Shown: positions 1 through 19,553 of the stretch, piece after piece | Position numbering within the stretch: the stretch's first letter is position 1 | Layout: the number at the start of each line of letters is the position of its first letter | IMG/VR virus record: IMGVR_UViG_3300009130_000092 | Location: 1-31,076 of that record | Source of the DNA: a virus | Reading direction: 5' to 3' (one strand) | Length of the DNA: 31,076 bases | The notes under the pieces: generated by a model | Database searches by the model: none | What the model was told of the DNA's origin: nothing | The model's input: the letters and a program-made list of their open reading frames with translations, nothing else | Translations under genes and position numbers: made by a program

Positions 1-347
1 TAAACCTCGGGTGCAAGTGCTGTGAAGTCGAGGAAGAAGATCAACCCAGACGGAAGGCTCATCGGCTGAACGGAGACAAGCTCCTGTGCAACCAGCGAAC
101 CGAACACGCGACGGACGATCGGGAAAGCGACGGCGGCGAAACCTTCTACGTCACCCGCAGCCATCGTTGTCGTCTCCTTAAGAAGCTCTTTAGCCTGGTT
201 CTCAAGAAGAACGGACATGGAATTACGGCTATAGTCATCAAGACCCTCAAGAAGACCAGTCTGTTCCCACTTATTAATGAGAGCAGCGCCGTCCTTCGAG
301 AGATCGCGATTGACGATACCCTCTGTTAACTTATTTAAAATACTCAT
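1..347 (-). CDS. 23: Major capsid protein, gp23-like (partial, N-terminal 115 residues)
   Basis: This is the N-terminal part of the T4 gp23-type shell protein; the rest lies beyond the left edge. The visible chain starts MSILNKLTEGIV and contains GDVEGFAAVAFPIVRR (about 65-80) and SVQPMSLPSGLIFFLDF (about 92-108). These match the T4 gp23 region with MVRRAIP and GVQPMNSPTG. The start is an ATG preceded by AGGAG at a normal distance. In T4 the prohead protease removes about 65 N-terminal residues after an (L/I)-x-E site; here LKE at 56-58 sits just before the conserved block and is a plausible equivalent, which is inference. The gene follows the scaffold gene with a 29-base gap, the T4 order 22-23. 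The family assignment is very secure. Confidence 0.95.
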   Translation of the reverse strand, partial: MSILNKLTEGIVNRDLSKDGAALINKWEQTGLLEGLDDYSRNSMSVLLENQAKELLKETTTMAAGDVEGFAAVAFPIVRRVFGSLVAQELVSVQPMSLPSGLIFFLDFTALAPEV

Positions 348-376: not shown

Positions 377-1534
377 TCAATCTTTTTTTATCCCTGCTAA
401 CTTTTGCATCTTTTCCATCAGCATCTTATTAGCGGGGGGCTTAGACTCGGGTCGGCGTGGTAAGAATGGGGAAACACGATTATTCATCGCCTCGCTCAGT
501 GAATTAGGAACACGTTGCGCTTGCTTCGTCTCCATCACCGCGCTTTGAAGCGTCTCATAAATCGTCTTAGCCTCTTCTACCGAACCTGCCTTGGATATAG
601 CTTCAACAATTGTATTCTTTTGTCGCTCATTCAGGGAGTTGCTACCAAGAACTCGGTTTGTATAGAGCAGTCTAGCATTTGTGAGGTTGACCTCGGCTAG
701 ACGCTCGCCAATTCGAGTAATAATTTCTTTTTGTTTTTGGCTCTTGTTATAGAAAGCCTGGGCAGCTTGCTTATACTTGGACGCCTTGTCTGATGACTCT
801 TCGAGCCTCTCAGTCAGGTCCTTGACTGCCTCTTTTTCTTTTTCCAGCTCTTCGGCTGTTTCTGTGTCGCGCATTGCTGCAAATTGCATATCTCGGGCAT
901 GTGAAAGTTCGGGCTGAGATGCTCCAAGCCACCCATCCGAAACAGGCCACATATCCACTTTCAATTCTTCTTGAATCTCTTCTTCCACCATGGATGCCAG
1001 ACGCTCGATGTGCTCTTCTGAGATGTTGATCTCTTCGTCGTCTTCTTCGGTCATTACCATCTGGTCGATGTCAGTGATTTCCCCTTGATCAATTGCCTCT
1101 TCTTCTTGCTCATCTTCTTCTTCTTGTTCCTCATATGAAACTTCGGCAAGAGGAATTTCAAGTTCTTCTTCTGCATCTAGTTCAATAGCTCCAGCGGATG
1201 GGAGGGATAATTCCCCTGCCTCTTCCTCTGCGTCCATGGCTTGTCGCAGTTGAGCAAAATCAATTACGATTTCTTCCTCTTCATCAGGGCAACCGCACAA
1301 CTCTTCTCCATCGGCAAACGCATCGGGAACTTCTAATTCAAGACCAGGAGTTTCGTCTCCCATGATCTCGTCACCCAAGGACATTTCCTCGTCTTCGGGG
1401 GCTTCTAGAAGCGTTGTGACAGCCTCTCGTACCTCTTCCGAATATTTCTCAAGAATTGCAGTCTCCGCATTCTTAATGGCAACCTCTTTAAGAGCCTTTG
1501 CATCAATGATAGCCTGTTCAAGCAAACTAGACAT
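377..1534 (-). CDS. 22: Prohead core scaffolding protein, gp22-like
   Basis: A 385-aa protein that probably forms the internal core on which the capsid protein assembles and that the prohead protease then degrades. The frame stays open 37 codons further upstream, but the ATG at 1534 (MSSLLEQAIIDAKAL) has AGAGGAG about 9 bases before it, and the upstream ATG has no ribosome site. Residues about 45-195 are extremely acidic (runs of E and D). About 230-300 is predicted coiled coil, and the C-terminus is basic, ending KLAGIKKD. Many L/I-x-E triplets in the acidic part fit the cleavage rule known for T4 gp21. It is longer than T4 gp22 (about 270 aa) because of the acidic region. Its place immediately before the capsid gene supports the call. 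Confidence 0.87.
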   Translation of the reverse strand: MSSLLEQAIIDAKALKEVAIKNAETAILEKYSEEVREAVTTLLEAPEDEEMSLGDEIMGDETPGLELEVPDAFADGEELCGCPDEEEEIVIDFAQLRQAMDAEEEAGELSLPSAGAIELDAEEELEIPLAEVSYEEQEEEDEQEEEAIDQGEITDIDQMVMTEEDDEEINISEEHIERLASMVEEEIQEELKVDMWPVSDGWLGASQPELSHARDMQFAAMRDTETAEELEKEKEAVKDLTERLEESSDKASKYKQAAQAFYNKSQKQKEIITRIGERLAEVNLTNARLLYTNRVLGSNSLNERQKNTIVEAISKAGSVEEAKTIYETLQSAVMETKQAQRVPNSLSEAMNNRVSPFLPRRPESKPPANKMLMEKMQKLAGIKKD

Positions 1535-1632
1535 AAACTTTTTCTCCTCTACTCTCATCCCACAATTACAAAATAAATGAGAATCAACAAACATAAATAG
1601 TATAAAGAAGCTGAAAACGCTAAATTGAGCAT

Positions 1633-1640
1633 AATTTATA
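1633..1640 (-). promoter_or_regulatory. Candidate late promoter upstream of scaffold and capsid genes
   Basis: The minus strand reads TATAAATT within TATAAATTAT, one base from the T4 late-promoter octamer TATAAATA. It lies about 100 bases before the scaffold start and downstream of the strong terminator at 1691-1722, so it could give the scaffold-capsid pair its own late transcript. The same 10-mer occurs at 1739-1746 and 14997-15004 and I found it nowhere else on this strand. The gp55/gp33-type factors that would use it are not in the window, so the function is inferred. Confidence 0.45.
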
Positions 1641-1690
1641 ATCATATGAACATAAGCGGTTTATTGGGGATTTTAGGTCCATAAAATTAA

Positions 1691-1763: not shown

Positions 1764-4049
1764 TCAGCCAACCGAGAAGAAGCGTACAAGAACTGTTCCA
1801 ACATTCTGAAGGGCGTCGCCCTGGAGTGTAACAGTTACTTTGTTGGCGTCGTCAAAAGTGACAGGAGCCATCTGCATCTCACCACCGACCATGACCTGAA
1901 CGAAAGGTGCAGAGTCACCAAGATTGTGGGTCAACTGGACGGAGTAAGCGCCGGAGGCGTCATACTGACCACCATTGGCGGTGTCAGTAGCCATACGAGC
2001 GTTGATGGCAGTGATAGCCGTAGCGTTAGCAGCCTCGGCAGCACCAGCACGAGCAACCTCAGCAGCAAGAGCAGCGTCGTTGCTTGTCTCGTAAGAGCTA
2101 AGGTCCGAAGCGACAGCCGCAATAGCAGCATCGGCATCGGACTCGTTGGTGTCAACGTCAGCCTGAACCGCATTGATAATAGCCAAGAGAGCGGCATCTT
2201 CAGCAGCAAACTCAGTGCGGATGGTGGCGCGATCGGTTGTCGCGGCGCTGTGAGCAGCGTCGGAATCCGACTCGTTCTGATCAACGTCAGCCTGAATTGC
2301 AGCCTCAGCAGCCGAAGCGCGAGCGATTTCAGCAGCAAGAGCCGCGTCGTTGCTTGTCTCGTAAGAGCTAAGGTCCGAAGCGACAGCAGCGATAGCAGCA
2401 TCGGCGTCCGACTCATTCTGGTCAACGTCAGCCTGAACAGCAGCGATGCTGGAGTTCAAGCTTGTGATAGCAGCAGCAAGAGCGTTGTCGTTGGTCAAAT
2501 CAACGGAGTTGATGAGTGCAACGATTTCAGCAAAGCTGTCCTTGTCCGCATCAGCAGCGAGAAGGATCGCGTCAACGCGAGCAGTCTCAACCGCAAGAGC
2601 CGCATCGTTGCTTGTCTCGTAAGAGGCAAGGTTGGAAGCGACAGAGCTGATGGAGTTGCTCAAGCTAGTGTCAACAGCAGCGAACTCGCTGCGGATGGCA
2701 GCGCGGTCGGTTGTTGCAGCGGCGTGGGCAGCGTCGGAGTCAGCCTCATTCTGATCAACGTCAGCCTGAAGAGCAGCCTCAGCAGCGGAAGCGCGAGCAA
2801 CCTCAGCAGCAAGAGCCGCATCGTTGCTTGTCTCGTAAGAGGCAAGGTTGGAAGCGATTGTGGACTCCGCATTGGTGGCACGGGAAACCTCACTAAGAAG
2901 TCCTGTGTCAAGGTCAACAAGGTCTTCGGTCAGACTTGAGTTGTTATCGATGTAAGCACCACCGCCAAGTTGGAATGGAACATAAGCACCGGCACCGGAC
3001 ATGAGGGAACCCATGGCAGCTTGAGTGGCGTCGAGTTCTGTCTGAAGCGCACCTTCGGCGGCAACAGCGCGGGCGGCTTCGGCGGCGATAGCAGCGTCAG
3101 CATCAGCCTCGTTCTGATCAACATCAGCCTGAAGAGCCGCAATAGCAGCATCGGCATCAGACTCATTCTGATCAACGTCAGCCTGAAGGGCGGCGAGAGC
3201 AGCGTCGGCATCAGCCTCGTTCTGGTCGACATCAGCCTGAAGAGCAGCCTCAGCAGCCGAAGCGCGGGCAATTTCAGCAGCAAGAGCCGCATCGTTGCTT
3301 GTCTCATACGAGCTAAGGTCGGAAGCGACAGCAGCGATAGCAGCGTCGGCATCAGACTCATTCTGGTCGACATCAGCCTGAACAGCAGCGATGCTGGAGT
3401 TCAAGCTTGTGATGGCGGCAGCAAGAGCGTTATCGTTTGTAAGATCGACAGAGTTGATAAGGGCAACGATTTCAGCAAAGCTGTCCTTGTCTGCGTCAGC
3501 AGCGAGAAGGATCGCGTCAACGCGAGCAGTCTCAACCGCAAGAGCGGCGTCGTTGCTTGTCTCGTAAGAGGCAAGGTTGGAAGCGACGGTGGCGATGTCA
3601 CTGCTTAGAGCTGTGTCAACAGCAGCGAACTCGCTGCGGATGGCAGCGCGGTCGGTTGTTGCGGAACTGTCAGCAGCGGCAAACTCAGTGCGGATAGCCG
3701 CACGGTCGGTTGTCGCAGCACTGTGGGCAGCGTCGGAGTCAGCCTCATTCTGATCAACGTCAGCCTGAAGAGCAGCCTCAGCAGCCGAAGCGCGAGCAGT
3801 TTCAGCAGCAAGAGCAGCGTCGTTGCTGGTCATGTAAGCCGAAAGGGATGAAGAAAGGCTGGTGATATCAGCGTTATCACCAACAACAGCGGGGGAGCCA
3901 GCAACCATCATCATGAGCTTGCCAGTCGCACTGTTAAACCACATCGACCCGTTGGGAGCCGATACGGCGTCATAAGCTGGATCGCTGGGAAGCGAACCGA
4001 GGAGCACCTGCCCCTCTAGCTTAATATTATGCATTGTTAATTTAGCCAT
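1764..4049 (-). CDS. Alanine-rich repeat fibre-like virion protein (761 aa)
   Basis: Probably an elongated virion fibre or decoration protein; this is inferred from composition. Residues 1-70 form a non-repetitive head (MAKLTMHNIKLEGQVLLGSL, then an FNSATGKLMMM strip). About 70-690 are built from repeats such as SYETSNDAALAAE, ARASAAEAALQADVDQNEAD and TTDRAAIRSEFAA, all helix-prone and likely coiled coil. A short island near 340-375 (GAYVPFQLGGGAYIDNN) breaks the pattern. The last 70 residues are a beta-type tip (VQLTHNLGDSAPFVQVMVGGE, ending VRFFSVG) that resembles the tip of the neighbouring 204-aa protein. The ribosome site AGGAGG lies before the ATG. Long open frames on the opposite strand here are by-products of the repeats. 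The exact role on the particle (tail fibre or head fibre) cannot be decided. Confidence 0.85.
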   Translation of the reverse strand: MAKLTMHNIKLEGQVLLGSLPSDPAYDAVSAPNGSMWFNSATGKLMMMVAGSPAVVGDNADITSLSSSLSAYMTSNDAALAAETARASAAEAALQADVDQNEADSDAAHSAATTDRAAIRTEFAAADSSATTDRAAIRSEFAAVDTALSSDIATVASNLASYETSNDAALAVETARVDAILLAADADKDSFAEIVALINSVDLTNDNALAAAITSLNSSIAAVQADVDQNESDADAAIAAVASDLSSYETSNDAALAAEIARASAAEAALQADVDQNEADADAALAALQADVDQNESDADAAIAALQADVDQNEADADAAIAAEAARAVAAEGALQTELDATQAAMGSLMSGAGAYVPFQLGGGAYIDNNSSLTEDLVDLDTGLLSEVSRATNAESTIASNLASYETSNDAALAAEVARASAAEAALQADVDQNEADSDAAHAAATTDRAAIRSEFAAVDTSLSNSISSVASNLASYETSNDAALAVETARVDAILLAADADKDSFAEIVALINSVDLTNDNALAAAITSLNSSIAAVQADVDQNESDADAAIAAVASDLSSYETSNDAALAAEIARASAAEAAIQADVDQNESDSDAAHSAATTDRATIRTEFAAEDAALLAIINAVQADVDTNESDADAAIAAVASDLSSYETSNDAALAAEVARAGAAEAANATAITAINARMATDTANGGQYDASGAYSVQLTHNLGDSAPFVQVMVGGEMQMAPVTFDDANKVTVTLQGDALQNVGTVLVRFFSVG
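2354..2642. repeat. Direct repeat, copy B (945 bases from copy A)
   Basis: This segment of the 761-aa gene nearly duplicates 3299-3587, at an offset of 945 bases, or 315 codons. Both encode SYETSNDAALAVETARVDAI, an AADADKDSFAEIVALINS block and AVQADVDQNESDADAAIAAV. Differences are mostly synonymous, so the protein is conserved while the DNA has drifted. Confidence 0.85.
3081..3242. repeat. Three tandem 54-base units (18-residue repeat)
   Basis: Three head-to-tail 54-base units encode LQADVDQNEADADAALAA with small changes (A/S before DAD, L/I near the end), residues about 270-323 of the repeat protein. Single copies of the same unit recur elsewhere in the gene. The 18-residue period does not equal a whole number of heptads, which suggests a stuttered coiled coil. 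Confidence 0.85.
3299..3587. repeat. Direct repeat, copy A (945 bases from copy B)
   Basis: Partner of 2354-2642 in the same reading frame. See that entry for the encoded block. The pair shows that the long repeat protein grew by duplication of a segment of at least about 290 bases as well as by the small 54-base units. Confidence 0.85.
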
Positions 4050-5555: not shown

Positions 5556-5817
5556 ATGGGGACGATGAGGCTGTAAAGAAGCCTAGCTCTTCCATTTCTG
5601 CCGGGGTAATTACAGTGCCCGTGAATTCAATATCCTCAGAGATGTGGGCGATCACAGTATTGTTTTCAGGATGCATCACTGGCTCCACATATTTCGTAGT
5701 GTATGCCCCTTCGACTGGTACGCCATTCTGAGTCAGTTGATACGGAATGCCTTTTTCTGTTTTGATCTGCTCGTGCCACTCATTAAAGGCTTCGATATTT
5801 TCGAACAACGCAATCAT
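5551..5817 (-). CDS. Small conserved-looking protein of the fibre cassette (88 aa)
   Basis: No family recognised. The ATG at 5817 is preferred over one four codons upstream because it forms an ATGA overlap with the stop of the lectin-like gene and has GGAG six bases before it. The protein starts MIALFENIEAFNEWHEQIK, is slightly acidic, and looks globular with no membrane segment. Small proteins encoded immediately after an adhesin are sometimes fibre-assembly chaperones; that would fit the tight coupling but is only a guess. The end of the gene overlaps a weak terminator. Confidence 0.72.
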   Translation of the reverse strand: MIALFENIEAFNEWHEQIKTEKGIPYQLTQNGVPVEGAYTTKYVEPVMHPENNTVIAHISEDIEFTGTVITPAEMEELGFFTASSSPS

Positions 5818-6710
5818 GGGGTACTCCACTTAGTCTTAAGATAGTTCTCGATCAAGGCGCGGTCAGGGGCGGAAACTTCATTGTCATAAATAATTACTTC
5901 TCCAACTTTACCCCACCAGCCACCAGCAGCACCGGAGCCGTTCCAACCCATTCCAAGAAACACCTCGTCCGACCATCCTGTTCCACCCCCAGGGTTGTCA
6001 TATCCTCGGCGCGAGCTTACTGTACCTACAAGCCCCTGATTCATCCAATAACTCATTGGATTAACGAGCCCTGCGCCCGAGCCTGGATCTGTAAAACTCA
6101 TGGTTGATTGGAATGTTTGACCTGCTGTGTTGCCAGCCAGTTCGACGTACTTATCAGCCGATCCTGCATCATACATATACGCCCTCATCCAAAAAGGATT
6201 ACCTACTACCCAACCATCGCTGTGAAAGCCCCAATAGCCAGACGCAGACACAATGCCAGGGTTGTTGTAGGTCGCAGCGAATCCGGCAGAGGTGTTGGGA
6301 ATTCCAAACTCTCCAACCAAAAATAAACTAAATGAAAACGAGCTACCCAAATTAGATTTGAGAGAGATATTGCTCCCTCCGGTGATCGCATCCATAATTG
6401 TAAGATATTGGACAGGGAGAGACCCGGCTACCTGTGTGAATTCGCACGCCTGGAGTCCTCCGATGCCGGAACCCCCAGTGACAAGAGCAGGTTCGCGGGT
6501 TGCCGTGCCGTTTGTTGTCCACCAAGCAGCAGAAGTCACTTTGTCGCGAATTGCTGCAATATCCGCAGCGGTCGCGCCGGTAGTGATGTTTCCAGCAGCG
6601 GTGTCGCTGAAATCAAACCAGCGAACGCATCCAGTGATCGTTGTCGGATCAAAAGGGGCGGAAGAGCTAGAAGCAAAGTTTGTAACAGGTATGGGAAAAG
6701 GAGGAGACAT
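5814..6710 (-). CDS. LamG/concanavalin-like lectin domain protein (298 aa)
   Basis: Likely a carbohydrate-binding adhesin on the virion. The chain reads CVRWFDFSDTAAGN near residue 28, then DKVTSAAWWTTNG, a glycine- and aromatic-rich beta body, and ends with KVGEVIIYDNEVS and RALIENYLKTKWSTP. The pattern of an early W-x-D-x-S-D, a late 'G-E-I-I-Y' strand and a terminal helix with K-W is typical of LamG or laminin-G-like domains fused to viral and bacterial surface proteins. There is no signal peptide. The ATG overlaps the upstream stop as TAATG, so translation is coupled to the 265-aa fibre gene. Receptor binding is inferred; the sugar specificity cannot be read. Confidence 0.78.
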   Translation of the reverse strand: MSPPFPIPVTNFASSSSAPFDPTTITGCVRWFDFSDTAAGNITTGATAADIAAIRDKVTSAAWWTTNGTATREPALVTGGSGIGGLQACEFTQVAGSLPVQYLTIMDAITGGSNISLKSNLGSSFSFSLFLVGEFGIPNTSAGFAATYNNPGIVSASGYWGFHSDGWVVGNPFWMRAYMYDAGSADKYVELAGNTAGQTFQSTMSFTDPGSGAGLVNPMSYWMNQGLVGTVSSRRGYDNPGGGTGWSDEVFLGMGWNGSGAAGGWWGKVGEVIIYDNEVSAPDRALIENYLKTKWSTP

Positions 6711-7507
6711 TATGCGAAATCCGTACTAAATGTAGCCCACAATATGCCGCCATTTGCAACCGCGCTGACAACTATATTTGAACCTACAGCAGCCGTCATG
6801 GTCGGCGCGGTTCCGCCGGGCCAAGCGAAGTTTGCGCCGAATGTGACAGTGCCAGCACCAGCGCCACCAGCTTGTTCGATAAACCACATATAAGTCGCGC
6901 CGCTCTCTACGTTAGTAGGGTTAGAAATCACGTTAGCTACCGAGGCGGTGAGCTGGGCATAGAACACGTTACCGGTGTCACAATCTGTGGCAAAGGTGGT
7001 GGGTGGACCAGCTACTCCCGATAGGGTGACCATGGGGGTATAAAGTTGCTTTTGTCCGACCACTGCACCTGCACGATTGACCAAGTGCCCGTCTGTCGGG
7101 ATGGCTCCATAGGCTAGTGAGGTGGGACCAGAAGTTTCAGTAAGACCGGCGCAGGCAGGGTTAGGGTAAGTTCCAGAAAGGTTCCCACCGGCACTTGTAG
7201 CAGCAGTAACAATCGCATTACCACCTGCCGTTGCCACGGTCGGATTGGGGTAAGTGCCCGACAGGTCGCCCCCGGCTGCTCCAGTGGGAGGACCGCCGCC
7301 GCCTCCTGCAACGCTGGTAATTGTTGCGCCTGTTCGAATAAGAGTTTCGCCATCAACGATAGTCCCAATCGTGAGCTGGGTGGGACCACTAGTCTCTGTG
7401 ATAGCAGCCACTCGTGGGGCGGGGTATTTCCCTGCTAGATCACCCTTCGCAGGAGCCCCTACGAATTGATCCATTAAACCTGTAAATCTCCAAAAACCAG
7501 TAGCCAC
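6710..7507 (-). CDS. Tail-fibre-like protein with SGTYPNP repeats (265 aa, GTG start)
   Basis: Probable fibre protein. The GTG start has AGGAGG eight bases upstream and gives ATGFWRFTGLMDQFVGAP after the first residue, similar to the N-terminus of the 204-aa protein. Three collagen-like or fibre motifs follow: KGDLAGKYPAPRV, GGDLSGTYPNPTV and GGNLSGTYPNPAC, the first and third continuing with a matching block TETSGPT-x-L-x-x-G-x-I. Such SGTYPNP motifs are well known in phage tail fibres. The C-terminal 100 residues form a glycine-rich beta domain ending WATFSTDFA. It is translationally coupled to the lectin gene downstream. The opposite-strand reading frames here are shadows. Confidence 0.82.
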   Translation of the reverse strand: MATGFWRFTGLMDQFVGAPAKGDLAGKYPAPRVAAITETSGPTQLTIGTIVDGETLIRTGATITSVAGGGGGPPTGAAGGDLSGTYPNPTVATAGGNAIVTAATSAGGNLSGTYPNPACAGLTETSGPTSLAYGAIPTDGHLVNRAGAVVGQKQLYTPMVTLSGVAGPPTTFATDCDTGNVFYAQLTASVANVISNPTNVESGATYMWFIEQAGGAGAGTVTFGANFAWPGGTAPTMTAAVGSNIVVSAVANGGILWATFSTDFA

Positions 7508-7555: not shown

Positions 7556-7780
7556 TCATCTTTTTCGCCGTCTTTCTTCTTTAGCTCTTCGTTGCTCACT
7601 CTTTTTCCTTTTCAGTCGCTTTTCCACTGAGGGCTTTTTATAAGTGCTAAATTTTTTAGATTCACGAAGGAGTTGGTGGACACCTTGCTTTTTGCACGCT
7701 CGCGAAAAGCGACGAATAAGAGAAGCCGTCGTCTCTCCAGGGCGCAATTCCACTCCTGCGTGTGTAGCCCGTTCCTTCAT
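7556..7780 (-). CDS. rpsU: Phage-encoded ribosomal protein bS21
   Basis: A 74-aa very basic protein resembling bacterial small-subunit protein bS21. Bacterial bS21 has the layout E-x-x-D-x-A-L-R-R-F-x-R-x-x-E-K-x-G, then an arginine-rich tail; here residues 11-34 read ELRPGETTASLIRRFSRACK and KQGV, followed by YKKPSVEKRLKRKKSEQRR and a K/R tail. Length matches the family (about 65-75 aa). bS21 is added late to the 30S subunit near the anti-Shine-Dalgarno end of 16S rRNA and affects initiation. Viral copies are known from aquatic phages. The start forms TAATG with the preceding gene's stop, so it is made with the late head genes. A virion role is not excluded. Confidence 0.92.
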   Translation of the reverse strand: MKERATHAGVELRPGETTASLIRRFSRACKKQGVHQLLRESKKFSTYKKPSVEKRLKRKKSEQRRAKEERRRKR

Positions 7781-8205
7781 TATTTCTTCCCCTCATTGAG
7801 ACGTTTCCAGATACTACCAGCATTTCCTGCTAAAGAAGAAATATCAACACCAGGGTCATCAGATGCAACCCCACTCAAGGGTCCGCCTGCGCCGCCAGAT
7901 TTAGAGGGGGTGCCTCGGTCACTCAAGGGAGCGGTGCCCGCAAATACATCCACATCCCCTCCAATGGACTTGAGGAGGCGTTTCTTTGCTTCTTCTAATT
8001 GCTGCTTTGCGGCAGAATTGTCAGGGACGGACGGGGGGGTAGGAGCAGCCTGCTCCTTAGAAACCTCGGTTGCCGATGCGGTTGAGGAAGTTCCTTTTAC
8101 AACCTCTTTGATAAGAACGGATATTACCCCTTCTTCTAACAAAGCCTCTTGAATACATTCCTTGACAATTGGCTTGAGGATTTTCTTTAACTCTGATTTC
8201 TTCAT
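7780..8205 (-). CDS. Small head-region protein, unknown (141 aa)
   Basis: No named family. The N-terminal 38 residues (MKKSELKKILKPIVKECIQE to VVKG) form a charged amphipathic helix pair. The rest is low-complexity, rich in A, S, P, G, with a short helix (QQLEEAKKRLLKS) and a closing WKRLNEGKK. The ATG overlaps the protease stop as ATGA, preceded by GAGGAG. The helix-plus-disordered build and the place after the protease suggest a prohead-internal or core protein, in the spirit of T4 gp67/gp68, but the sequence does not prove this. Confidence 0.75.
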   Translation of the reverse strand: MKKSELKKILKPIVKECIQEALLEEGVISVLIKEVVKGTSSTASATEVSKEQAAPTPPSVPDNSAAKQQLEEAKKRLLKSIGGDVDVFAGTAPLSDRGTPSKSGGAGGPLSGVASDDPGVDISSLAGNAGSIWKRLNEGKK

Positions 8206-8819
8206 CGCTCCTCTTTCACATCTGCTACGATATCATTAATAAGCCTGTTGATTTTATCGGCTTTCGTGATGATGTTCGGCTCTAAATTCTTAGCCTCTTT
8301 TACCATAAAGGCTCCCGTAGTTGAAGGTTCTGAAACAAAATCAAAGCAAATGAGCTGGAAGTCATCTTCTACTACAATGCCGGTTGCCCCTTCTCGAACC
8401 GAGCCGAGACCTCGTGAAGAAATGCCAAGCTTGACACCAGACTCTACAAGAGAGCGCAAGATCTTACCGGAGGGGGTTTCAAGGAGCTTGACTTTACCAA
8501 GCACATCTTTGCCGTCCCACCAAATCTCAGTAACAAGGTGTGAAGCGTTCTTTAGATTCACTACTGAATCGTCGGGGTGATCAAGCTCACCAAGGGCGCG
8601 GCGCTCTTTAACGAGCTTTTTATAATTATTTACTTCGCGCTCTAAGATGTGTTGGGGATATACTCTCCCGTTGCCATTTTTAGCTTCGGCTCGTTGCATT
8701 ATGCCAGATAAATACATGGCACCGTTTGCTACTTCGCGCTTTTCTTCCTCTGTCAAAAGATCTTGACAGACACCACCTTCGCACAATTCATAATATTCTC
8801 GTAAAAGCTTTTTAGACAT
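8202..8819 (-). CDS. 21: Prohead maturation protease, gp21-like (205 aa)
   Basis: Serine protease of the T4 gp21 type (herpesvirus-assemblin fold) that degrades the scaffold and trims the capsid protein during head maturation. Visible family blocks are GRVYPQHILEREV (51-63), ALGELDHP with the probable catalytic His81, NLKNASHLVTEIWW (88-101), KLLETPSGKILRSLVESG, GISSRGLGSV with the probable catalytic Ser134 or Ser135, and FDFVSEPSTTGA with Asp160. Length is close to T4 gp21 (212 aa). The ATG has GAGG upstream and overlaps the end of a 46-codon microgene by eight bases. Its substrates, scaffold and capsid, are encoded about 6.5 kb downstream instead of next door as in T4. Confidence 0.95.
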   Translation of the reverse strand: MSKKLLREYYELCEGGVCQDLLTEEEKREVANGAMYLSGIMQRAEAKNGNGRVYPQHILEREVNNYKKLVKERRALGELDHPDDSVVNLKNASHLVTEIWWDGKDVLGKVKLLETPSGKILRSLVESGVKLGISSRGLGSVREGATGIVVEDDFQLICFDFVSEPSTTGAFMVKEAKNLEPNIITKADKINRLINDIVADVKEER

Positions 8820-9824: not shown

Positions 9825-10657
9825 GACTTCACAACCTCGTCAGCCAAAGCCTGTACCTTTAGTACGCGACGCAAAGCCTCTTCGTCTAGTTGCTTTTCCT
9901 TTATAGAATCAAGGCACTCTAAAACTACTTTTAACTTCTCGCGCATTTCCCCATCATTCGTAATTTCTTCCATATTCGATGCTTCAGAGAGTACGGTGCG
10001 GAGACGACCGACCTCCTCGTTGATGAAAGCCTTTAAAGATAGGGCGTTATCTGCAAAAGAAGAAATATAGCGAGACAACAACTCCTTCTGCTCCGCAAGA
10101 AGCCCGTGTTCATACTTTTCATTAAACTTCTGGACAAAAGAGGTGTAAACCAAATTGTCGACATGCTCAATACGCTGTTCCGTCACTTCATCCTTTGCCG
10201 TGATAAAAGATGCGATCTTTTCCTGTAGCAGTGAGCGTTCCTGTACTGTAACAGTTGGGCTAAAAAGTTGAGCAATTGTTGCAAGGCTCTTATAATGGGG
10301 GACGAAATTAGAATAAATAGAAGGTCCAAGATTCTTATTTATTCTCTTGATAAGATCAGTCTGCTCATTAAATATTTTTGTTGAATTCAAGCGACGCTGT
10401 GAATCACACACATTGAAGATTAGGGTGCGTGCCGTGTCCTCGGAAGATTGTTTTTCTTCGTACAAGGCTTTATATAACACCAACTCTTGGTAAAGGCTTG
10501 TGCTTTTAGAAAAGCATTCCTTAATTAGCGAAATTGCTGCCTCTTTCCGGTCCTCATCCTGATTCACGATCGACTTTGTCGCTTCCATGACTAGGGCTTC
10601 GAACAGAAAAGCGGTATTTCTTTTCTTATTATGACGAAACTTTGTCTTTTTGGTCAT
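9821..10657 (-). CDS. Helical prohead-core candidate (278 aa)
   Basis: Unknown family. The N-terminus is basic (MTKKTKFRHNKKRNTAFLFEALVMEATK) and the rest is almost entirely helical, with charged heptad-like stretches, ending VLKVQALADEVVKS. The start has GAGAGG and lies 29 bases inside the end of the portal gene, so the two are co-translated. In T4 the gene after the portal encodes core protein gp67. This protein is much longer than that, but the all-helical charged make-up suits a core or scaffold helper. I cannot show homology to gp67 or gp68 by eye. Confidence 0.75.
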   Translation of the reverse strand: MTKKTKFRHNKKRNTAFLFEALVMEATKSIVNQDEDRKEAAISLIKECFSKSTSLYQELVLYKALYEEKQSSEDTARTLIFNVCDSQRRLNSTKIFNEQTDLIKRINKNLGPSIYSNFVPHYKSLATIAQLFSPTVTVQERSLLQEKIASFITAKDEVTEQRIEHVDNLVYTSFVQKFNEKYEHGLLAEQKELLSRYISSFADNALSLKAFINEEVGRLRTVLSEASNMEEITNDGEMREKLKVVLECLDSIKEKQLDEEALRRVLKVQALADEVVKS

Positions 10658-12575
10658 TATTTTTCCTCTCTAAGTTTGAAATCAACTGCTCTACTTCTCG
10701 ACTGACTTCAAAAATTCTTTTTTCGTTCTTATCTTCACGGTTCTGAGTTTCTTCCGTGATGCCTTTCCCTAACGAGTTGAGGGAATCCAAGCCCTTGAAG
10801 ATGTTACGCGATGCCGAACTTGCAACCTCGCGCCCATATTGCGCCTTCATATTACGCTGGCGGGCTCCCATGTCTCTCTTGTCAGTTGTAACTGGAGTAT
10901 ACATCTTCCCCTTGGCACCAGGAGTTGTATAAGGTTCTCTCTTCGCAGGAGCGGCGAGTAATGTTTCATCATCATCTTCTACCGGCTCATCAATATCAAG
11001 ATCCAAATCATCTTCCCCCACGTCCAAGTCTAGATCATCGCCACCCATGTCTTCGGCGGAACCGCCACCGGCTGAGTCAAGCCCAAAACTTCCTTCACCT
11101 ATACCACCGCCAGCACCTTCTGAGATGTCGTCCTCTATCTTGCCCAGAGTGGCATTAAATTTACGATCATAAAACATTTCTCTCTCGTTACGAAGAATTT
11201 CTTCATCCGACAGCGAGAAGATATTTTGTGCAACCCATCGACGGCTAAAATAACCCTCAGTCGCGCTGGAAGCTACATCAAACTTGGTGCGGAGCTGTTC
11301 CAGGTGTTGCATCTCCGCAATTTGAGAAGGATTATTTAGTTTCAAATGAAAGTTAAGTAAATCTTCGCCGCGGAATCCCAAAGTGTAAAGATGGACAATA
11401 CCCACCTTTTCCAATTCAGAAACCACAGAACGCTGCAATCGCTGAATGGTGCGGGCAAAACGAATATCCTTCTGCGCTAAAGTAGTCTTATCCTCATCTG
11501 CCCCTTCTCCGCGAGACAAGTAAGATTGTGGAACCTTCAGTGCAGAAAAAAGCTTGTCGCGTAAATATTTTACATCATCAATAGAGCCCTGGTTGTTCCC
11601 TCCTGCCAGCGTTTCAATCCGAGTAGAACTGCCTTGTCCTCGTACCGGCAAGTAATAGTCTTCGTCAACCGACATAGGGTTGTAGCGGAGATCAACTCTG
11701 CCGGTATTGGGATCGACAACTTGGTTGCGCTTCATTTGAGTCATCGCCTTTTGCATATATTGCTCAACATCGTCAGGGGCAATATTACCTACATCAAGGT
11801 AAAAAACGCGGCGCTCAGGGGCGCGAACAATTCTATAGCTCATCATCGCGTCTTCTAGCAAAGTAAGCTGACGCCAGATTCGGCGGGCAGGCTCTAGAAC
11901 CGAAGAGCCATAAGGGGCATATTTATCATGCCCTAAAATACGAAAGTGGGCAACCTGCCAATTCTCGAAAGTCAAGCCAGCCGCATTCCACTGGTATTGT
12001 ACATAATTGGGATTTGTAGGGTCTTCCCCTTCTAGGCGCTCAATCTCAGAACTAGGAAGCCCGATAGCATTACGCACACCTGCGGTATCATCAATATCAA
12101 GATAGAGAAAAAAGTCGCCATACTTGCACATGGTTCGACTCCATCCAAATAAATTAAAATCAATATTGAGCACCTGATGGTACAAGGTCATGAGTACTGA
12201 TTTGATCTCTTCGTTAGGACAGTCAATGGTGAGCAAAGGCTGCAACTGATTAGAAGTGGTCATTTCGTCGGCGTAAATATCCAAAGCGGAAGCAATTTCG
12301 GGCGTAAACTCCATTTGCTGAAAATCTACATATCTCTCTGCACGCATTTGGTTAAGCATATACCCGCTATTGAGAGAGTCAAACGGGTTATACGCCGTCT
12401 TCTTAAATTGTTGACCGCTGGGTGTTGTGAACCGGCTTCCGTAATTGGAGTAATAACGCTTTCGCCCTCGAACGATGTCTTGACGCCGGTAATTTACGAT
12501 AGGACCAGAAAAAAGCCGAGTAAGCCTCTTGAAGAGAGTAGAATCAGAGTTCTTGGGGTTGTCATTGTTATCCAT
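10629..12575 (-). CDS. 20: Portal vertex protein, gp20-like (648 aa)
   Basis: Forms the dodecameric ring at the tail vertex through which DNA is packaged and to which the terminase docks. T4 gp20 landmarks are visible: IASALDIYADEMTT (94-107), NLFGWSRTMCKYGDFFLYLD (141-160), APERRVFYLDVGNI (252-265), DEDYYLPVRGQGSSTRIETL (304-323) and IDDVKYLRDKLFSALKVPQS (332-351). T4 gp20 has 524 residues; here about 120 extra follow residue 480: a glycine-rich linker, a run of Asp/Glu (509-537, twice DDLDLD) and a basic, partly helical tail. The start ATG is six bases after the terminase stop, with only a weak GGG-rich site. The gene order terminase-portal without sheath and tube genes differs from T4. Confidence 0.95.
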   Translation of the reverse strand: MDNNDNPKNSDSTLFKRLTRLFSGPIVNYRRQDIVRGRKRYYSNYGSRFTTPSGQQFKKTAYNPFDSLNSGYMLNQMRAERYVDFQQMEFTPEIASALDIYADEMTTSNQLQPLLTIDCPNEEIKSVLMTLYHQVLNIDFNLFGWSRTMCKYGDFFLYLDIDDTAGVRNAIGLPSSEIERLEGEDPTNPNYVQYQWNAAGLTFENWQVAHFRILGHDKYAPYGSSVLEPARRIWRQLTLLEDAMMSYRIVRAPERRVFYLDVGNIAPDDVEQYMQKAMTQMKRNQVVDPNTGRVDLRYNPMSVDEDYYLPVRGQGSSTRIETLAGGNNQGSIDDVKYLRDKLFSALKVPQSYLSRGEGADEDKTTLAQKDIRFARTIQRLQRSVVSELEKVGIVHLYTLGFRGEDLLNFHLKLNNPSQIAEMQHLEQLRTKFDVASSATEGYFSRRWVAQNIFSLSDEEILRNEREMFYDRKFNATLGKIEDDISEGAGGGIGEGSFGLDSAGGGSAEDMGGDDLDLDVGEDDLDLDIDEPVEDDDETLLAAPAKREPYTTPGAKGKMYTPVTTDKRDMGARQRNMKAQYGREVASSASRNIFKGLDSLNSLGKGITEETQNREDKNEKRIFEVSREVEQLISNLERKNNDQKDKVSS

Positions 12576-12581
12576 ATTTTT

Positions 12582-14165
12582 TTACCCTTTATAAAGCCAC
12601 CTAAATTCTTGCATTTCTTGGAATTGAGGAGAATGTTTGACGTCAGCAGACGATGGCTTATATCCTACCATACCTTTGACTGAAGTGTTAAGAGATCTTC
12701 GCGAAGAAGTAATACCCCCTAACAATGCTTTAGTGTATTCCGCGTCACGATGGTTGTTGGTCAAAACAGTTTCACGGACCCAACACGCAATTGAGGCAGC
12801 GAGTACCAAGTCATCGTTATACCCCTTCATCGCTTCTGGCTTCCCGTTGTTCCATACAAATGTTTTGATCTCGTTCAAAAGCCTTAAAGACTTGATGTTA
12901 ATTAGTCCATTTCTGATGAATTCCTCTAACTTGGCAATAATAAGAGGTCGGGTCTTCATTGATGTGGTAAAACCGGGCACGCTATTGCTTGCATAAGAAG
13001 CGTCTACGGGCGACAAGTATTCGTGGGTTCCTTTAACAGAATAATAAATATTAGGATATTCCATCTCTTGTAATTTACTCAAGACCGCATAACCTATGTT
13101 ATTATTCTCAACAACCAGCATACAGTCCCCATATTCTTTTCCAACATTATATAAGACTGTAGCAAACATATCAGGCTCGATACGACCTTGATACTCTGCC
13201 ACCTGCGACATTGTTGTGGTGTCGAAAATATGAAACGCTGAAAAGTCTTTTCCGTCGCCGCGGGCGACATCAGCCACAAGAAGATAAGCCCCCTCGGGCT
13301 GGTACTCTTCCCATATATGCAAATTTCTGTCAAACCCGGTGCGGTACTTAGGCTCGCACAGGATAGTTTGAAGCTTTTCAATACTTTCGGGATGAATGAC
13401 TGTTTCACCAGACATATTAAAGTTGCATTCCAACTCTTGAGCAATTTGACGACGAGACATATTCTTTGTTTCTCGCTCGAACCATTCTTCGTCACGATCG
13501 GGATGCGCTTGCCAGGGCAATCTAAAAGATTCAAAATCGTTTGTTCCCTCTTCTGCCCCCACATAAGTTTGATGAAACCAGTTCCCTACGCCATTCGGAG
13601 TGCTTAGGGCAATACATCGCCCTCCAGTGCTGAGGGTGGGGTATAAACCAGTCCACAGCTCATCTAAGCCTTGAATGTGTGCAGCCTCGTCAAGAACCAG
13701 AAGCGATAGTGCTTCGGAACGACCGGCGTCGAAACTTGTTGAAGAGGCTTTGATTTGAGAACCGTTAGAAAGCTCGAATGAAGTGCGGTTATCAATAGAA
13801 ATCGTTGCAATTTGCATCCATGAAGGAGTGCTCTTAACCAAACTTTTGACCTTCTTTACTAGATTGGCGGCTGTTTGAAACTTAGTAGCCATCACGATGA
13901 TATTTTTATCTCGATGAAAAAGCATCATCCAGGCAACATACCCAGCAACCACAGTAGAGATACCTAATTGCCGCGCCTTTAATATAACACTAAAGCGGTT
14001 CTCATTAAAACTGTTCAACAGATCCGTTTGATAATCATACGTCTTAAAAGGAACAGTCCCCTGCATAGGGTGTGAAATCTTCACATAGGTGTTCAGAAAA
14101 TAAGCGGGGTCTTTACCTGCTTTTATAATTTCCTTCAGAATATCTTGCTTGCTCATCTGCGACAT
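12582..14165 (-). CDS. 17: Terminase large subunit, gp17-like (527 aa)
   Basis: ATP-driven DNA packaging motor and headful nuclease. The ATPase half shows a variant Walker A, KARQLGIST (63-71), a Walker B, LLVLDE (155-160) with catalytic Glu160, and a coupling motif ALSTPNG (186-192). The nuclease half has the RNase H-like acids Asp299 (LVADVARGDG), Glu353 (VVENNNIG) and Asp451/Asp452 (GYNDDLVLAAS). T4 gp17 is 610 aa; this is on the short side but complete. Either the ATG at 14165 or the one three codons later could be used; no strong ribosome site separates them. The small subunit is not evident, although two small genes precede it. Confidence 0.97.
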   Translation of the reverse strand: MSQMSKQDILKEIIKAGKDPAYFLNTYVKISHPMQGTVPFKTYDYQTDLLNSFNENRFSVILKARQLGISTVVAGYVAWMMLFHRDKNIIVMATKFQTAANLVKKVKSLVKSTPSWMQIATISIDNRTSFELSNGSQIKASSTSFDAGRSEALSLLVLDEAAHIQGLDELWTGLYPTLSTGGRCIALSTPNGVGNWFHQTYVGAEEGTNDFESFRLPWQAHPDRDEEWFERETKNMSRRQIAQELECNFNMSGETVIHPESIEKLQTILCEPKYRTGFDRNLHIWEEYQPEGAYLLVADVARGDGKDFSAFHIFDTTTMSQVAEYQGRIEPDMFATVLYNVGKEYGDCMLVVENNNIGYAVLSKLQEMEYPNIYYSVKGTHEYLSPVDASYASNSVPGFTTSMKTRPLIIAKLEEFIRNGLINIKSLRLLNEIKTFVWNNGKPEAMKGYNDDLVLAASIACWVRETVLTNNHRDAEYTKALLGGITSSRRSLNTSVKGMVGYKPSSADVKHSPQFQEMQEFRWLYKG

Positions 14166-14175
14166 TCATGCTTCT

Positions 14176-14439
14176 CTACTCTTCCGTTGATTTGTTTTCA
14201 CGGAGCAAGCGCAAGATGTTCGCTAAGGTGTCTCGGGCGATGTCCTGAGGGAGCATCTGAACCACAGCCTCACCGGCATGTTGATAGTCACCACCATAGG
14301 CAGCAACGACCTCATCAAACATAGCGAATGTCTCGTCTGAAGGATCTTCGGCAAGAAGGGGGACCGAGGCTGAGTGGCTCTTGTGGCGTGCTACCTCTTC
14401 CTTGATAATTTGTTTAAGGCGTGCCTTTGTAATTCTCAT
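14176..14439 (-). CDS. Small protein before terminase, unknown (87 aa)
   Basis: Starts MRITKARLKQIIKEEVARHK, a basic amphipathic helix of a type often seen at the start of small phage proteins (compare KKSELKKILKPIVKE at 7780-8205). The middle is acidic (LLAEDPSDETFAMFDEVV) and the C-terminal half helical (DIARDTLANILRLLRE). The start overlaps the preceding stop as ATGA. It is in the position of a small terminase subunit but is shorter than T4 gp16 (164 aa) and has no clear helix-turn-helix, so the function is left open. Confidence 0.72.
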   Translation of the reverse strand: MRITKARLKQIIKEEVARHKSHSASVPLLAEDPSDETFAMFDEVVAAYGGDYQHAGEAVVQMLPQDIARDTLANILRLLRENKSTEE

Positions 14440-16403: not shown

Positions 16404-19400
16404 CTATTGTTTTACATATGCGTACTTGCCCTTTTTCTCGATCGAGATCTGAGTATCAACACAGTCTTTAAGGGTGTCAAGGTGTGAAATTAGCAAGACT
16501 GTCTTATAATAAGACTTTACAAGATCTAGAATCCTGATAAAACCTTCCATGTTTTCCTCGTCCAAAGCAGAGCCCGGTTCGTCAAGAATAAAAATATTAC
16601 CTTTCGGCATAGAAGAAACATTAAGTAGTGCCATTCGAATTCCCATAGAGGCAATAGTCTTCTCTGCGCCCGAGCCCATCTCTAGAGGACGAGCTTCATA
16701 CTTGGGGTGTTTGATGTGTATGTTCAGGTTTTTATCATCACACTCCATAAGAACCTCAAAATCAACAACATTTGCCAAAACTTTTGCAATCTCTTCATTG
16801 ATGACGGGAAGACTCTTACGCACAATGTCTAGTGCGATCCCGTTACTGTGCATACACCTCATATAAAGATCGTATGCAGAATATTCAAACCGAAGCTTAT
16901 TCAATTCTGCTTCTTGCCCCTTTATAGTTTCTATGTTTTGTTCAACTCCTCCGATAGCCCGGTTCAGCCCCATCACCTCTTCACTGCAAGTTACGAGGCG
17001 CGATTCACACTGGGCTTTCTCTTGAGCAAGATTCTTCTGCTGTGTAAGAAGCTTTTCTAAGTTCTCAATCGATTCCTTGTTATCGTCATATTCCTTAATG
17101 CGAGCTTGTAGTTCCTTGACCTCCACTTCTCTTATAAGAAGAGTGCGGCGGGCTGTCTCAGCAGCAAGATGCTCTGCATTCTTAGATGTTTTGATGGTTG
17201 CCAGCTTTTCTACAACCTGTTGATATTTGGATAAAAAGCTCTCAACCTGTTCGGGATTAAGATGCATAATTTCCTTTGATGTCTCTTTCTCTTCAGCAAG
17301 TATCCCCTGGAGTGCGGTGCTAACTGTTTTATATTCTTTCTTGGAGGCGTGAGCATCTTTAATAAACTGACAATGAGAATATTCCGCTCCGCAAGGAACT
17401 TCATCCAGAAGAGATAATTTCTTCTTGTGCTGTTGAGACATGCTCTCGTGTAACGCAAGCTCGCTATGAATACGATTCAGTTCATCCTTTTTTGCCTTGA
17501 TGATGTTCTGTGTGTTTTTCAACCCCTCCAAGTCAAAGTCACTAATGAACTTCTCAAATTTGTCAATCTCTTCCCCGTACTTCTTTACTTTCTTGTCACT
17601 ATCACGAATTTTGGTCCGTGTTTGAGTTGTCTGTTTCTTCGCAACACTTAGCTTTTCTTTCTCTGCGTCGTAATCAATAATTTCTACCGGAATAGAATCA
17701 ATCTTAGCTTGTATTTCCTCAAGGGATTTGTGGGCAGATTCAATCTTATTCTGCAAAACACTGCATTCTTGCTTCTGGTTATCCAAAACCTGGATGCTGT
17801 CCTGTAGTTTGTTTGTCTCTTCGGTTAATTCAGAGTGGAAATCTCTTCCTTCAAACTTCTTAATCAATGCCTTATGATCAGAACTGTCTTCCTTGGCAAG
17901 CTTGAATTTCTTATCGAAAACCTCAAGATCCAAAAACTTAGCTAAAATTTCTTTTCTCTTCGTTGAGCCCTCGCCAATAAATGAAAGGGAATCAAGCTGA
18001 GAAGACATGGATGTCAAAAGAAAGTCTTCGAGCGTGCCAAAGAACTTTCGTATGTTCTTATCAGTATGATTTCGTGTCATCCCGTTCAGTGAAAGATTAT
18101 CCTCCGTGACGGGATCAACAATGTTGAAGTCAAGGTTGGTTTTTGCCTCAATGGTCTCATCGCCCTTTAGCTTTTTTACATACTTGTCTGATCGTCGACT
18201 AATTGTCAGCTCTTTGCCATCAGCCTCTAGAACCACTTCAGCTTCACAATAGTCTTTATTTTGATTGATGACGTTTAAGGTTTTGCGATTATTCTTAGAA
18301 GTGGAGTTGAAGATTCCCCACAAAAGGCTATCAATGATACTGGATTTTCCAGAGAAATTTTTACCAAAAATCCCAACTACTCCAGAAAGATTATTGAAGT
18401 CTATGGTATTCCCCTCTCCATAATTGAAAAGGTTATCCCATTTAAGTGATTTAAGGTTCCACTTGATGTTTCGCTTGACCAATTCTTCTTCTTCTACGAG
18501 CGTAGAATAATGCTTGTTTAGTTCTAACACCTTCTTGAGAGTGTCCTCATCTGGTTCATAGTCCTTTATATATTCTTTTATGAGTCGCGCCTGGACAGCT
18601 AGGTCTCGAAGGTCTTCGTTGTTGAGTTTACCAACTACGTCTGGACCGCTTCTTGAACCACAAGCCCTATTAAGAAAGGTGATTGATTCAGGAGAGAATC
18701 GACGCTTCGCTACATCAACTGCTTTCTTTAGGCTGTTGATCGTAAGATTATTGTTGGTAACAATGCGAATGCGAGCCCCTATAGGGACCTTAGTGCCTTT
18801 GGGTATTCTGCCCTTAGGAGTAAGCTCAATTGTGACGAAAGGCTTGGGGTTTTCTATGCTCACATGCTCGCAAGTGAAGCCCTCCTTCCCGTTGATATCC
18901 CATAGGAGAAAACCTTTGTCATTGCTCTCTCCGTGGTTCTGCTGAACGGTGGAGCCGGGATATCGAACGCGACCTTCGGGGTCGAGACTCTGATTGGTTT
19001 TGTGAATGTCTCCTAAGAAAGCAAAATCATGATGTTCGAAGATATCAATATCGTGATCACCGTGGTCCATAACATACCCGGTGTCAGTCACTACTCCGCG
19101 AACTGAGCCGTGGTAGAGGGCGATATTAACACGAGAGGGGTCGGATGGTTTGACCCATTCATCCTCATCGAAGACCGACAAAACATTTAAAGAATAAGTG
19201 TCATCAAGATGAACCTCTCCCGCCACCTTGAGTAGATGAAGGTTAGGCAAATTCAAAGCATCGACAATCGGTGTCAGTGCATCTTGCCGACTGCGGTTCT
19301 TCAAATTGCCATCATGGTTCCCAAGGATAATATAAGTGGGAGCAATAGATGATAGCTCACGAAAAAAATCAGAAGCCATCTGAACAAACTCTGGCGATAT

Positions 19401-19553
19401 TTGTGTTTTTGTGTGGGCGATATCACCACAATGGATGATATAATCTACCTTTTCTTCGCGTAGACGCTCGTACATTTTCTTAAAAACTTCACGATATTCA
19501 TAATGATACTTGAGGTTTCTAATATGGGTATCTGCAATATGTGCAAATTTCAT
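16404..19553 (-). CDS. Fused recombination endonuclease gp47-gp46 (SbcD-SbcC/Mre11-Rad50 type, 1049 aa)
   Basis: One chain joins the two subunits of the T4 gp46/gp47 complex, which resects DNA ends for recombination-dependent replication. The nuclease part (1 to about 230) has the Mre11 metal-site motifs ADTHIR (Asp8, His10), CGDIAH (Asp44), LGNHDG (Asn79, His80), YHGS (His148) and LGDIHK (His184). A capping region follows. The ATPase part has Walker A GIFGKNFSGKSS (394-405), a long coiled coil, a hook-like point with Cys721 and Cys728, signature MGSGAEKT (959-966), Walker B IFILDEP (987-993) and H-loop His1024. The usual zinc hook is C-x-x-C; here the spacing is C-x6-C. In T4 these are two genes. 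AGGAGG lies four bases before the ATG. No frameshift is seen. Confidence 0.95.
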   Translation of the reverse strand: MKFAHIADTHIRNLKYHYEYREVFKKMYERLREEKVDYIIHCGDIAHTKTQISPEFVQMASDFFRELSSIAPTYIILGNHDGNLKNRSRQDALTPIVDALNLPNLHLLKVAGEVHLDDTYSLNVLSVFDEDEWVKPSDPSRVNIALYHGSVRGVVTDTGYVMDHGDHDIDIFEHHDFAFLGDIHKTNQSLDPEGRVRYPGSTVQQNHGESNDKGFLLWDINGKEGFTCEHVSIENPKPFVTIELTPKGRIPKGTKVPIGARIRIVTNNNLTINSLKKAVDVAKRRFSPESITFLNRACGSRSGPDVVGKLNNEDLRDLAVQARLIKEYIKDYEPDEDTLKKVLELNKHYSTLVEEEELVKRNIKWNLKSLKWDNLFNYGEGNTIDFNNLSGVVGIFGKNFSGKSSIIDSLLWGIFNSTSKNNRKTLNVINQNKDYCEAEVVLEADGKELTISRRSDKYVKKLKGDETIEAKTNLDFNIVDPVTEDNLSLNGMTRNHTDKNIRKFFGTLEDFLLTSMSSQLDSLSFIGEGSTKRKEILAKFLDLEVFDKKFKLAKEDSSDHKALIKKFEGRDFHSELTEETNKLQDSIQVLDNQKQECSVLQNKIESAHKSLEEIQAKIDSIPVEIIDYDAEKEKLSVAKKQTTQTRTKIRDSDKKVKKYGEEIDKFEKFISDFDLEGLKNTQNIIKAKKDELNRIHSELALHESMSQQHKKKLSLLDEVPCGAEYSHCQFIKDAHASKKEYKTVSTALQGILAEEKETSKEIMHLNPEQVESFLSKYQQVVEKLATIKTSKNAEHLAAETARRTLLIREVEVKELQARIKEYDDNKESIENLEKLLTQQKNLAQEKAQCESRLVTCSEEVMGLNRAIGGVEQNIETIKGQEAELNKLRFEYSAYDLYMRCMHSNGIALDIVRKSLPVINEEIAKVLANVVDFEVLMECDDKNLNIHIKHPKYEARPLEMGSGAEKTIASMGIRMALLNVSSMPKGNIFILDEPGSALDEENMEGFIRILDLVKSYYKTVLLISHLDTLKDCVDTQISIEKKGKYAYVKQ

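Follow-up and report, generated by a model that had tools for sequence, protein, structure and literature searches.

The open reading frame (ORF) at positions 7556-7780 of the window, by which we mean the whole 31,076-base linear virus record analysed here, was confirmed by sequence comparison to encode a homologue of ribosomal protein bS21, and bS21 was found to be a fixed head-module gene in two clades of related phages, termed W (window-like) and M (like Microcystis phage Mel-JY01). We put the chances at about even that the gene of the window is a stable head-module gene whose product would act as a late-made replacement, matched to the ribosome type of the host, that keeps initiation on late messages going. 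In such a scheme phage bS21 would be made together with the late head genes, would enter the host 30S subunit in place of, or besides, the host bS21, and would maintain initiation on late messages when the supply of the host protein drops; the match would be to the host ribosome type, without selection of Shine-Dalgarno (SD) strength. The relevant features of the window, given in their order along the minus strand, are as follows.

12582-14165, minus strand: terminase large subunit, TerL (PF03237, 1.6e-11; phrog_2, 5.6e-49)
10629-12575, minus strand: portal, gp20 type (PF07230, 2.7e-82)
8202-8819, minus strand: prohead core serine protease, gp21 type, S77 (PF03420, 4.3e-33)
7780-8205, minus strand: 141-aa ORF upstream of bS21 (homologues in window-type relatives)
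7778-7794, minus strand: initiation site of bS21, with GAGGGG at 7794-7789 and a TAATG overlap at 7782-7778 (SD pairing -8.5 kcal/mol)
7556-7780, minus strand: bS21 (rpsU) homologue, 74 aa (PF01165, 31.6 bits, cut-off 27)
6710-7507, minus strand: fibre-like ORF directly 3' of bS21 (phrog_9017 tail fiber, 6.2e-4)
5814-6710, minus strand: second ORF downstream of bS21, overlapping the first by one base (weak PHROG matches)
377-1645, minus strand: ORF in the scaffold (gp22) position, between the fibre-like ORFs and the capsid gene (position, homologues in relatives)
3-347, minus strand: N-terminal part of the major capsid protein gp23, the gene being cut by the window end (PF07068, 6.7e-9; phrog_138, 6.5e-14)

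The first-pass annotation had called the protein a clear bS21 homologue and left the decision to a profile search, which places it inside the bS21 family at 4.6 bits above the Pfam cut-off (E = 1.4e-7); a six-frame search of the window gave a PF01165 match at 31.2 bits. PHROG 21469, 'ribosomal protein S21', also matches (E = 8.8e-5), and among 25 PDB sequence matches at E up to 1, 23 are named bS21 or 30S S21 (best 8.7e-5), the remaining two being pyruvate formate-lyase activating enzyme at E 0.2-0.6. The match is beyond chance, since every one of the 27 proteins in an alignment of the window copy and 26 relatives hits PF01165 at E <= 0.01. The predicted model is helical (mean pLDDT 88, pTM 0.43), and the top three Foldseek matches are bS21 chains (4ybb_AU, 8rd8_NV and 5mmj_u; best E 0.045, probability 0.85), with no Foldseek match below E 0.001. 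The window copy is among the most divergent of its group, with end branches of 1.71 and 1.32 in two trees, and like many W copies it lacks several of the residues that are usual in the bacterial bS21 sampled, so this copy could be drifting or specialised. Both the narrow margin over the Pfam cut-off and the divergent residues count against the replacement model. A bS21 identical to that of the window is present in a 47.6-kb IMG/VR record. The protein is highly basic, lies in the head module and is divergent in the window, and might on these grounds be a prohead core or DNA-condensing protein working off the ribosome. We regard this as very unlikely, as the Y.KPS core is conserved in both clades (Y 0.88 in W and 0.98 in M, K 1.00, P 0.94 in W and 1.00 in M, S 1.00) and the bS21 type follows the ribosome type across clades.

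The place of the gene within a run of head genes, as claimed in the first-pass annotation, was borne out; the strand, which that annotation left unmentioned, is the minus strand. The minus-strand order is terminase, portal, three ORFs, prohead protease, 141-aa ORF, bS21, fibre-like ORFs, scaffold-position ORF (without a match in the Pfam search) and the start of gp23. The TAATG junction with the upstream gene was likewise found as described, TAA occupying 7782-7780 and ATG 7780-7778, with GAGGGG eight bases upstream, and close coupling to the upstream gene is general: with starts chosen by rule, the stop codon of the upstream gene is no more than 20 nt away from the bS21 start in 29/32 window-type loci, and precedes that start by 4-26 nt in all 41 Mel-type loci. 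The gap of about 48 nt between bS21 and the first fibre-like ORF contains AGGAGG. A scan for the late promoter found no exact match to TATAAATA in the window and made out no clear site before bS21; with one mismatch the motif is over-represented in the window (47 against 28.8 expected, with 0 of 100 shuffles as high). Scans for sigma-70 promoters and terminators gave nothing specific at the bS21 gene, and an Rfam search gave 0 matches at gathering scores.

The 141-aa partner ORF had no match in Pfam and PHROG searches, and its family was detected solely in W loci. The window-type relatives share a DPGVDIS tail and a conserved N-terminus that includes an EEG-type motif. This N-terminal stretch resembles a prohead-protease site, so the partner of bS21 may be an internal head protein; its model, of helices and loops, is of low confidence (pLDDT 69.6). 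In five W loci (L034, L052, L068, L076 and L039) about 0.4-1.5 kb of extra DNA separates the 141-aa gene from bS21, and the two are therefore not always adjacent. Elsewhere in the window, an 87-aa ORF at 14176-14439 on the minus strand, starting MRITKARLKQIIKEE and without a PHROG match, resembles the 141-aa family at its start by eye. In bS21 itself an N-terminal [LI]xE site, presumably a cleavage motif of the prohead-protease type, is not conserved (4/32 in W, 0/41 in M). This lowers the case for packaging of bS21 in the virion and its injection for action on ribosomes as soon as infection begins, which its location among prohead genes would suit and which Chen et al. proposed (PMC9723584); packaged proteins need not all have such a site, and we consider packaging unlikely.

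Relatives were gathered by portal searches in three sets, W, M and I (like Flavobacterium phage immuto), each made up of the 80 best out of over 590 candidates; adding the window and L001-L004 brought the number of sequences scanned to 245. Where a locus of these best-80 sets held the protease together with the scaffold or capsid gene, bS21 was present in 19/19 W, 32/32 M and 0/37 I loci, and with duplicates removed in 17/17, 29/29 and 0/34 complete intervals, respectively. For the distinct counts the duplicates L001, L002 and L007 and identical proteases were dropped. Left out of the interval counts were loci without a protease in the record (40 W, 35 I, 23 M) and cut intervals. In W, 16 of the cut intervals contain bS21 (among them L001, a fragment of the window) and 8 do not; in M, 9 contain it and 17 do not; and in I there are 9, all lacking it. 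The bS21 copies found in W and M sit on the head-gene strand. When 24 larger records were searched whole, 16 carried one PF01165 copy (9/10 W, 7/7 M, 0/7 I), the tenth W record, which has no bS21, being cut at the head module. The immuto head module (MW353176) is homologous to that of the window but lacks bS21 in the slot, where an unrelated 75-aa ORF follows the protease, and a PF01165 search of its whole 160-kb genome found none. Among named phages, tblastn with a W bS21 gave no matches, with the window bS21 as query it returned three faecal-phage matches, weak and unannotated (E 0.01-0.03), and an M bS21 found Mel-JY01 and two records titled 'Acinetobacter phage MD-2021a'. One record of that title, L245 (CAKLQH020000004), looks like a bacterial chromosome around rpsU.

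A second placement was found with a Flavobacterium-type bS21 query. It returned 21 loci, of which 20 (set C, all but L379) carry at least one head-module gene homologous to those of the window. Portal and protease flank bS21, which is on the opposite strand, in all 12 of the set C loci that include the three genes. No second bS21 copy was found among the 20 loci, 14 of which include protease and scaffold; the set was not thinned and contains 7 distinct bS21 proteins. The portal tree, built from subsets, recovers each of W, M, I and C as one clade, paired as M+I (support 100) and C+W (95), and without C the M+I pair has support 99; these were quick searches on subsets of 32 W, 13 I, 11 M and 10 C sequences with 3 outgroups, and gave long-branch warnings. 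By simple parsimony, two gains into one slot, in W and in M, require two steps, and a single gain followed by loss from I and from C requires three. The immuto-type absence of bS21 is a single phylogenetic event; this and the cheaper double gain count against the replacement model.

Within W and within M, bS21 is under purifying selection and is co-inherited with the portal. Distances of bS21 and portal correlate in both (W, r 0.70, n 32; M, r 0.65, n 29), neither value being reached in 2000 permutations, and dN/dS is low, with a median of 0.04 in W from 2 pairs only and 0.08 in M from 238 non-independent pairs. Host genes are often acquired by phages, and the gene might likewise be a recent, functionless capture. 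This reading is largely refuted and scarcely credible given the selection and co-inheritance, and given that in the bS21 tree W (32 rows) and M (14 rows) each form one clade not nested in the sampled bacteria; in a second tree, with C added, W as one clade requires two changes. The C proteins group with L379 and two Bacteroidia-type bS21 from the PDB (support 100). The tree of viral and bacterial bS21 by which the first-pass annotation had meant to find the host lineage failed in this, as W and M join no sampled bacterial lineage securely (62-67 columns). AU tests did not reject a W+M clade (p 0.835), M with cyanobacteria (p 0.911) or even all phage copies, W+M+C, as a single clade (p 0.398); they are compatible with more than one origin of the gene, a point against the replacement model. 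The bacterial sample behind these trees is biased, consisting of the 80 loci that best matched a single phage query, 25 cyanobacteria loci and a few records from phage and plasmid collections.

The type of bS21 was read from the position of Tyr54 of Flavobacterium johnsoniae bS21, a residue linked to blocking of the anti-SD (ASD) in Bacteroidia (PMC9976891, PMC9723584). The window has Gln there. An aromatic residue occurs in 5/32 W and 0/39 M proteins (2 further M rows stop short of the position), and the five aromatic W proteins count against the replacement model. In set C, read by residue number, the residue is Tyr in 20/20 loci (7 distinct proteins), and L379, whose bS21 lies outside a head module, has His. 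Apparently, then, the bS21 type tracks the host ribosome type, and as the phage type resembles that which the host would need, action on the host ribosome is favoured.

The use of SD sequences also divides the clades. Counted over distinct upstream sequences with starts chosen by rule, an SD precedes the scaffold and capsid genes in 31/31 cases in W, 38/43 in M and 0/63 in I (scaffold and capsid separately: 17/17 and 14/14 in W, 21/21 and 17/22 in M, 0/32 and 0/31 in I). For TerL, portal and protease the fractions are 0.15, 0.71 and 0.69 in W, 0.05, 0.15 and 0.00 in M, and 0.04, 0.00 and 0.05 in I; with SDs at these genes weak and dependent on the clade, SD use in M is patchy. We attribute the contrast between clades to the ribosome type of the host. 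The immuto host is Flavobacterium, and from the missing SDs we infer a Bacteroidia host for the rest of the I set; the strong SDs of the window genes argue against a Bacteroidetes host. Neither of the SD-free clades, I and C, has the same-strand bS21 type that follows the protease. It is possible, though we hold it at somewhat below even chances, that the T4-like head module took up bS21 at least two times, in two places and orientations, each matched to the ribosomes of the host. In W and M this would be an SD-host type, placed behind the protease and sharing its strand; in C it would be a Bacteroidia type, set between portal and protease but oriented the other way. On this proposal bS21 would be a ribosome-matching part of the head operon whose type reads out the initiation mode of the host.

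The first-pass annotation suggested that phage bS21 could tilt 30S subunits toward those phage messages whose SDs are strong. It is in keeping with this that bS21 adjoins the anti-SD (PMC9723584, PMC9976891), and that SDs are used in both clades that carry bS21 after the protease and are not used in the sister clade without bS21. However, the head region, taken as the 21-22-kb stretch around the portal, has no SD excess over the rest of the genome in two large relatives (0.65 over 17 genes against 0.63 over 136 genes, p 0.62; 0.55 over 29 genes against 0.61 over 155 genes, p 0.89). Comparison of phages with and without rpsU, suggested along with this idea, does not help it either, the T4-like phages RB43 (0.77, 13 genes) and P-SSM4 (0.56, 16 genes) being similar in SD use without bS21. 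Set C with L379 (21 loci) carries bS21, yet has an SD before just 9 of 163 other genes. The statement that many genes of the window carry AGGAGG was overstated as well: an SD tetramer precedes 16 of the 24 listed genes, and AGGAGG itself 4 of the 24. We consider a tilt toward strong SDs improbable.

Entry of a phage bS21 into host ribosomes, as required by the replacement model, has some precedent. Mizuno et al. (2019, PMC6375957) describe host bS21 as dynamic and exchangeable, and report that the bS21 of Pelagibacter phage HTVC008M, a phage protein as in the window and itself 54% identical to the protein of its SAR11 host, enters E. coli 70S ribosomes. Ribosomes of E. coli carrying the pelagiphage protein retained only about 5% activity in vitro (PMC6375957). 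We count this against the replacement model, and it would suit an initiation inhibitor, with bS21 poisoning or slowing host translation instead of helping. That role has in our view a low probability, since the assay crossed species, a site beside the capsid genes would poorly suit a blocker of all translation, and the bS21 type follows the host ribosome type. In pelagimyophages S21 is a core gene reportedly tied to no specific gene cluster (PMC7029224), in contrast to its place in the head module here.

That phage bS21 occurs near head genes was already known. The first-pass annotation held that its role in a late operon is not known, which stands as to proof; Chen et al. (2022, PMC9723584) had, however, reported for freshwater Bacteroidetes phages a bS21 close to the TerL, portal, protease and capsid genes, as in the window, its late transcription with the head genes, and a ribosome-hijack hypothesis. 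Of 900 published genomes, they list 310 in which a prohead protease lies no more than 10 genes from bS21 (PMC9723584); W-type loci may be among these. Set C, whose head-module genes are homologous to those of the window, looks like the same type as the phages of Chen et al. The bS21 of these phages is on the strand opposite to the head genes, whereas that of the window is on the same strand after the protease; the Chen and C type is aromatic as in Bacteroidia, in phages with nearly SD-free genes, and the W type is mostly non-aromatic, in phages that use SDs. In Mel-JY01 (PP395634) an annotated RpsU stands in the order protease, hypothetical, RpsU and, further on, capsid, all on the same strand as in the window. 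Its RpsU belongs to another bS21 clade than that of the window, and the ORF upstream is not matched by the profile of the window's 141-aa family. None of the papers covered by the literature search names Mel-JY01, and the four-clade bS21 pattern was not found in the titles and abstract openings that the search covered, mostly of papers free of subscription and with supplements set aside. What is added is that bS21 has a fixed place in the W/M lineage and is absent or replaced in sister phages of a different ribosome type, which makes the role of bS21 easier to test. Homologous head modules in three bS21 states (same-strand, none, and opposite-strand Bacteroidia type) offer a natural comparison, and isolates exist for two of the types: Mel-JY01, which has bS21, and immuto, which lacks it.

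Two further ORFs of the window, both on the minus strand, were noted. The 761-aa ORF at 1764-4049 contains long, near-repeated stretches rich in Ala and Asp and is fibre-like by position; it has no PHROG match, and its GC content is 0.56-0.58 as against about 0.44-0.45 on both sides. At 16404-19553, a single 1049-aa ORF joins SbcD-like and SbcC-like parts, which we take to correspond in role to T4 gp47 and gp46. This fusion recurs in two other W records, L362 and L375, at 1046 aa each.
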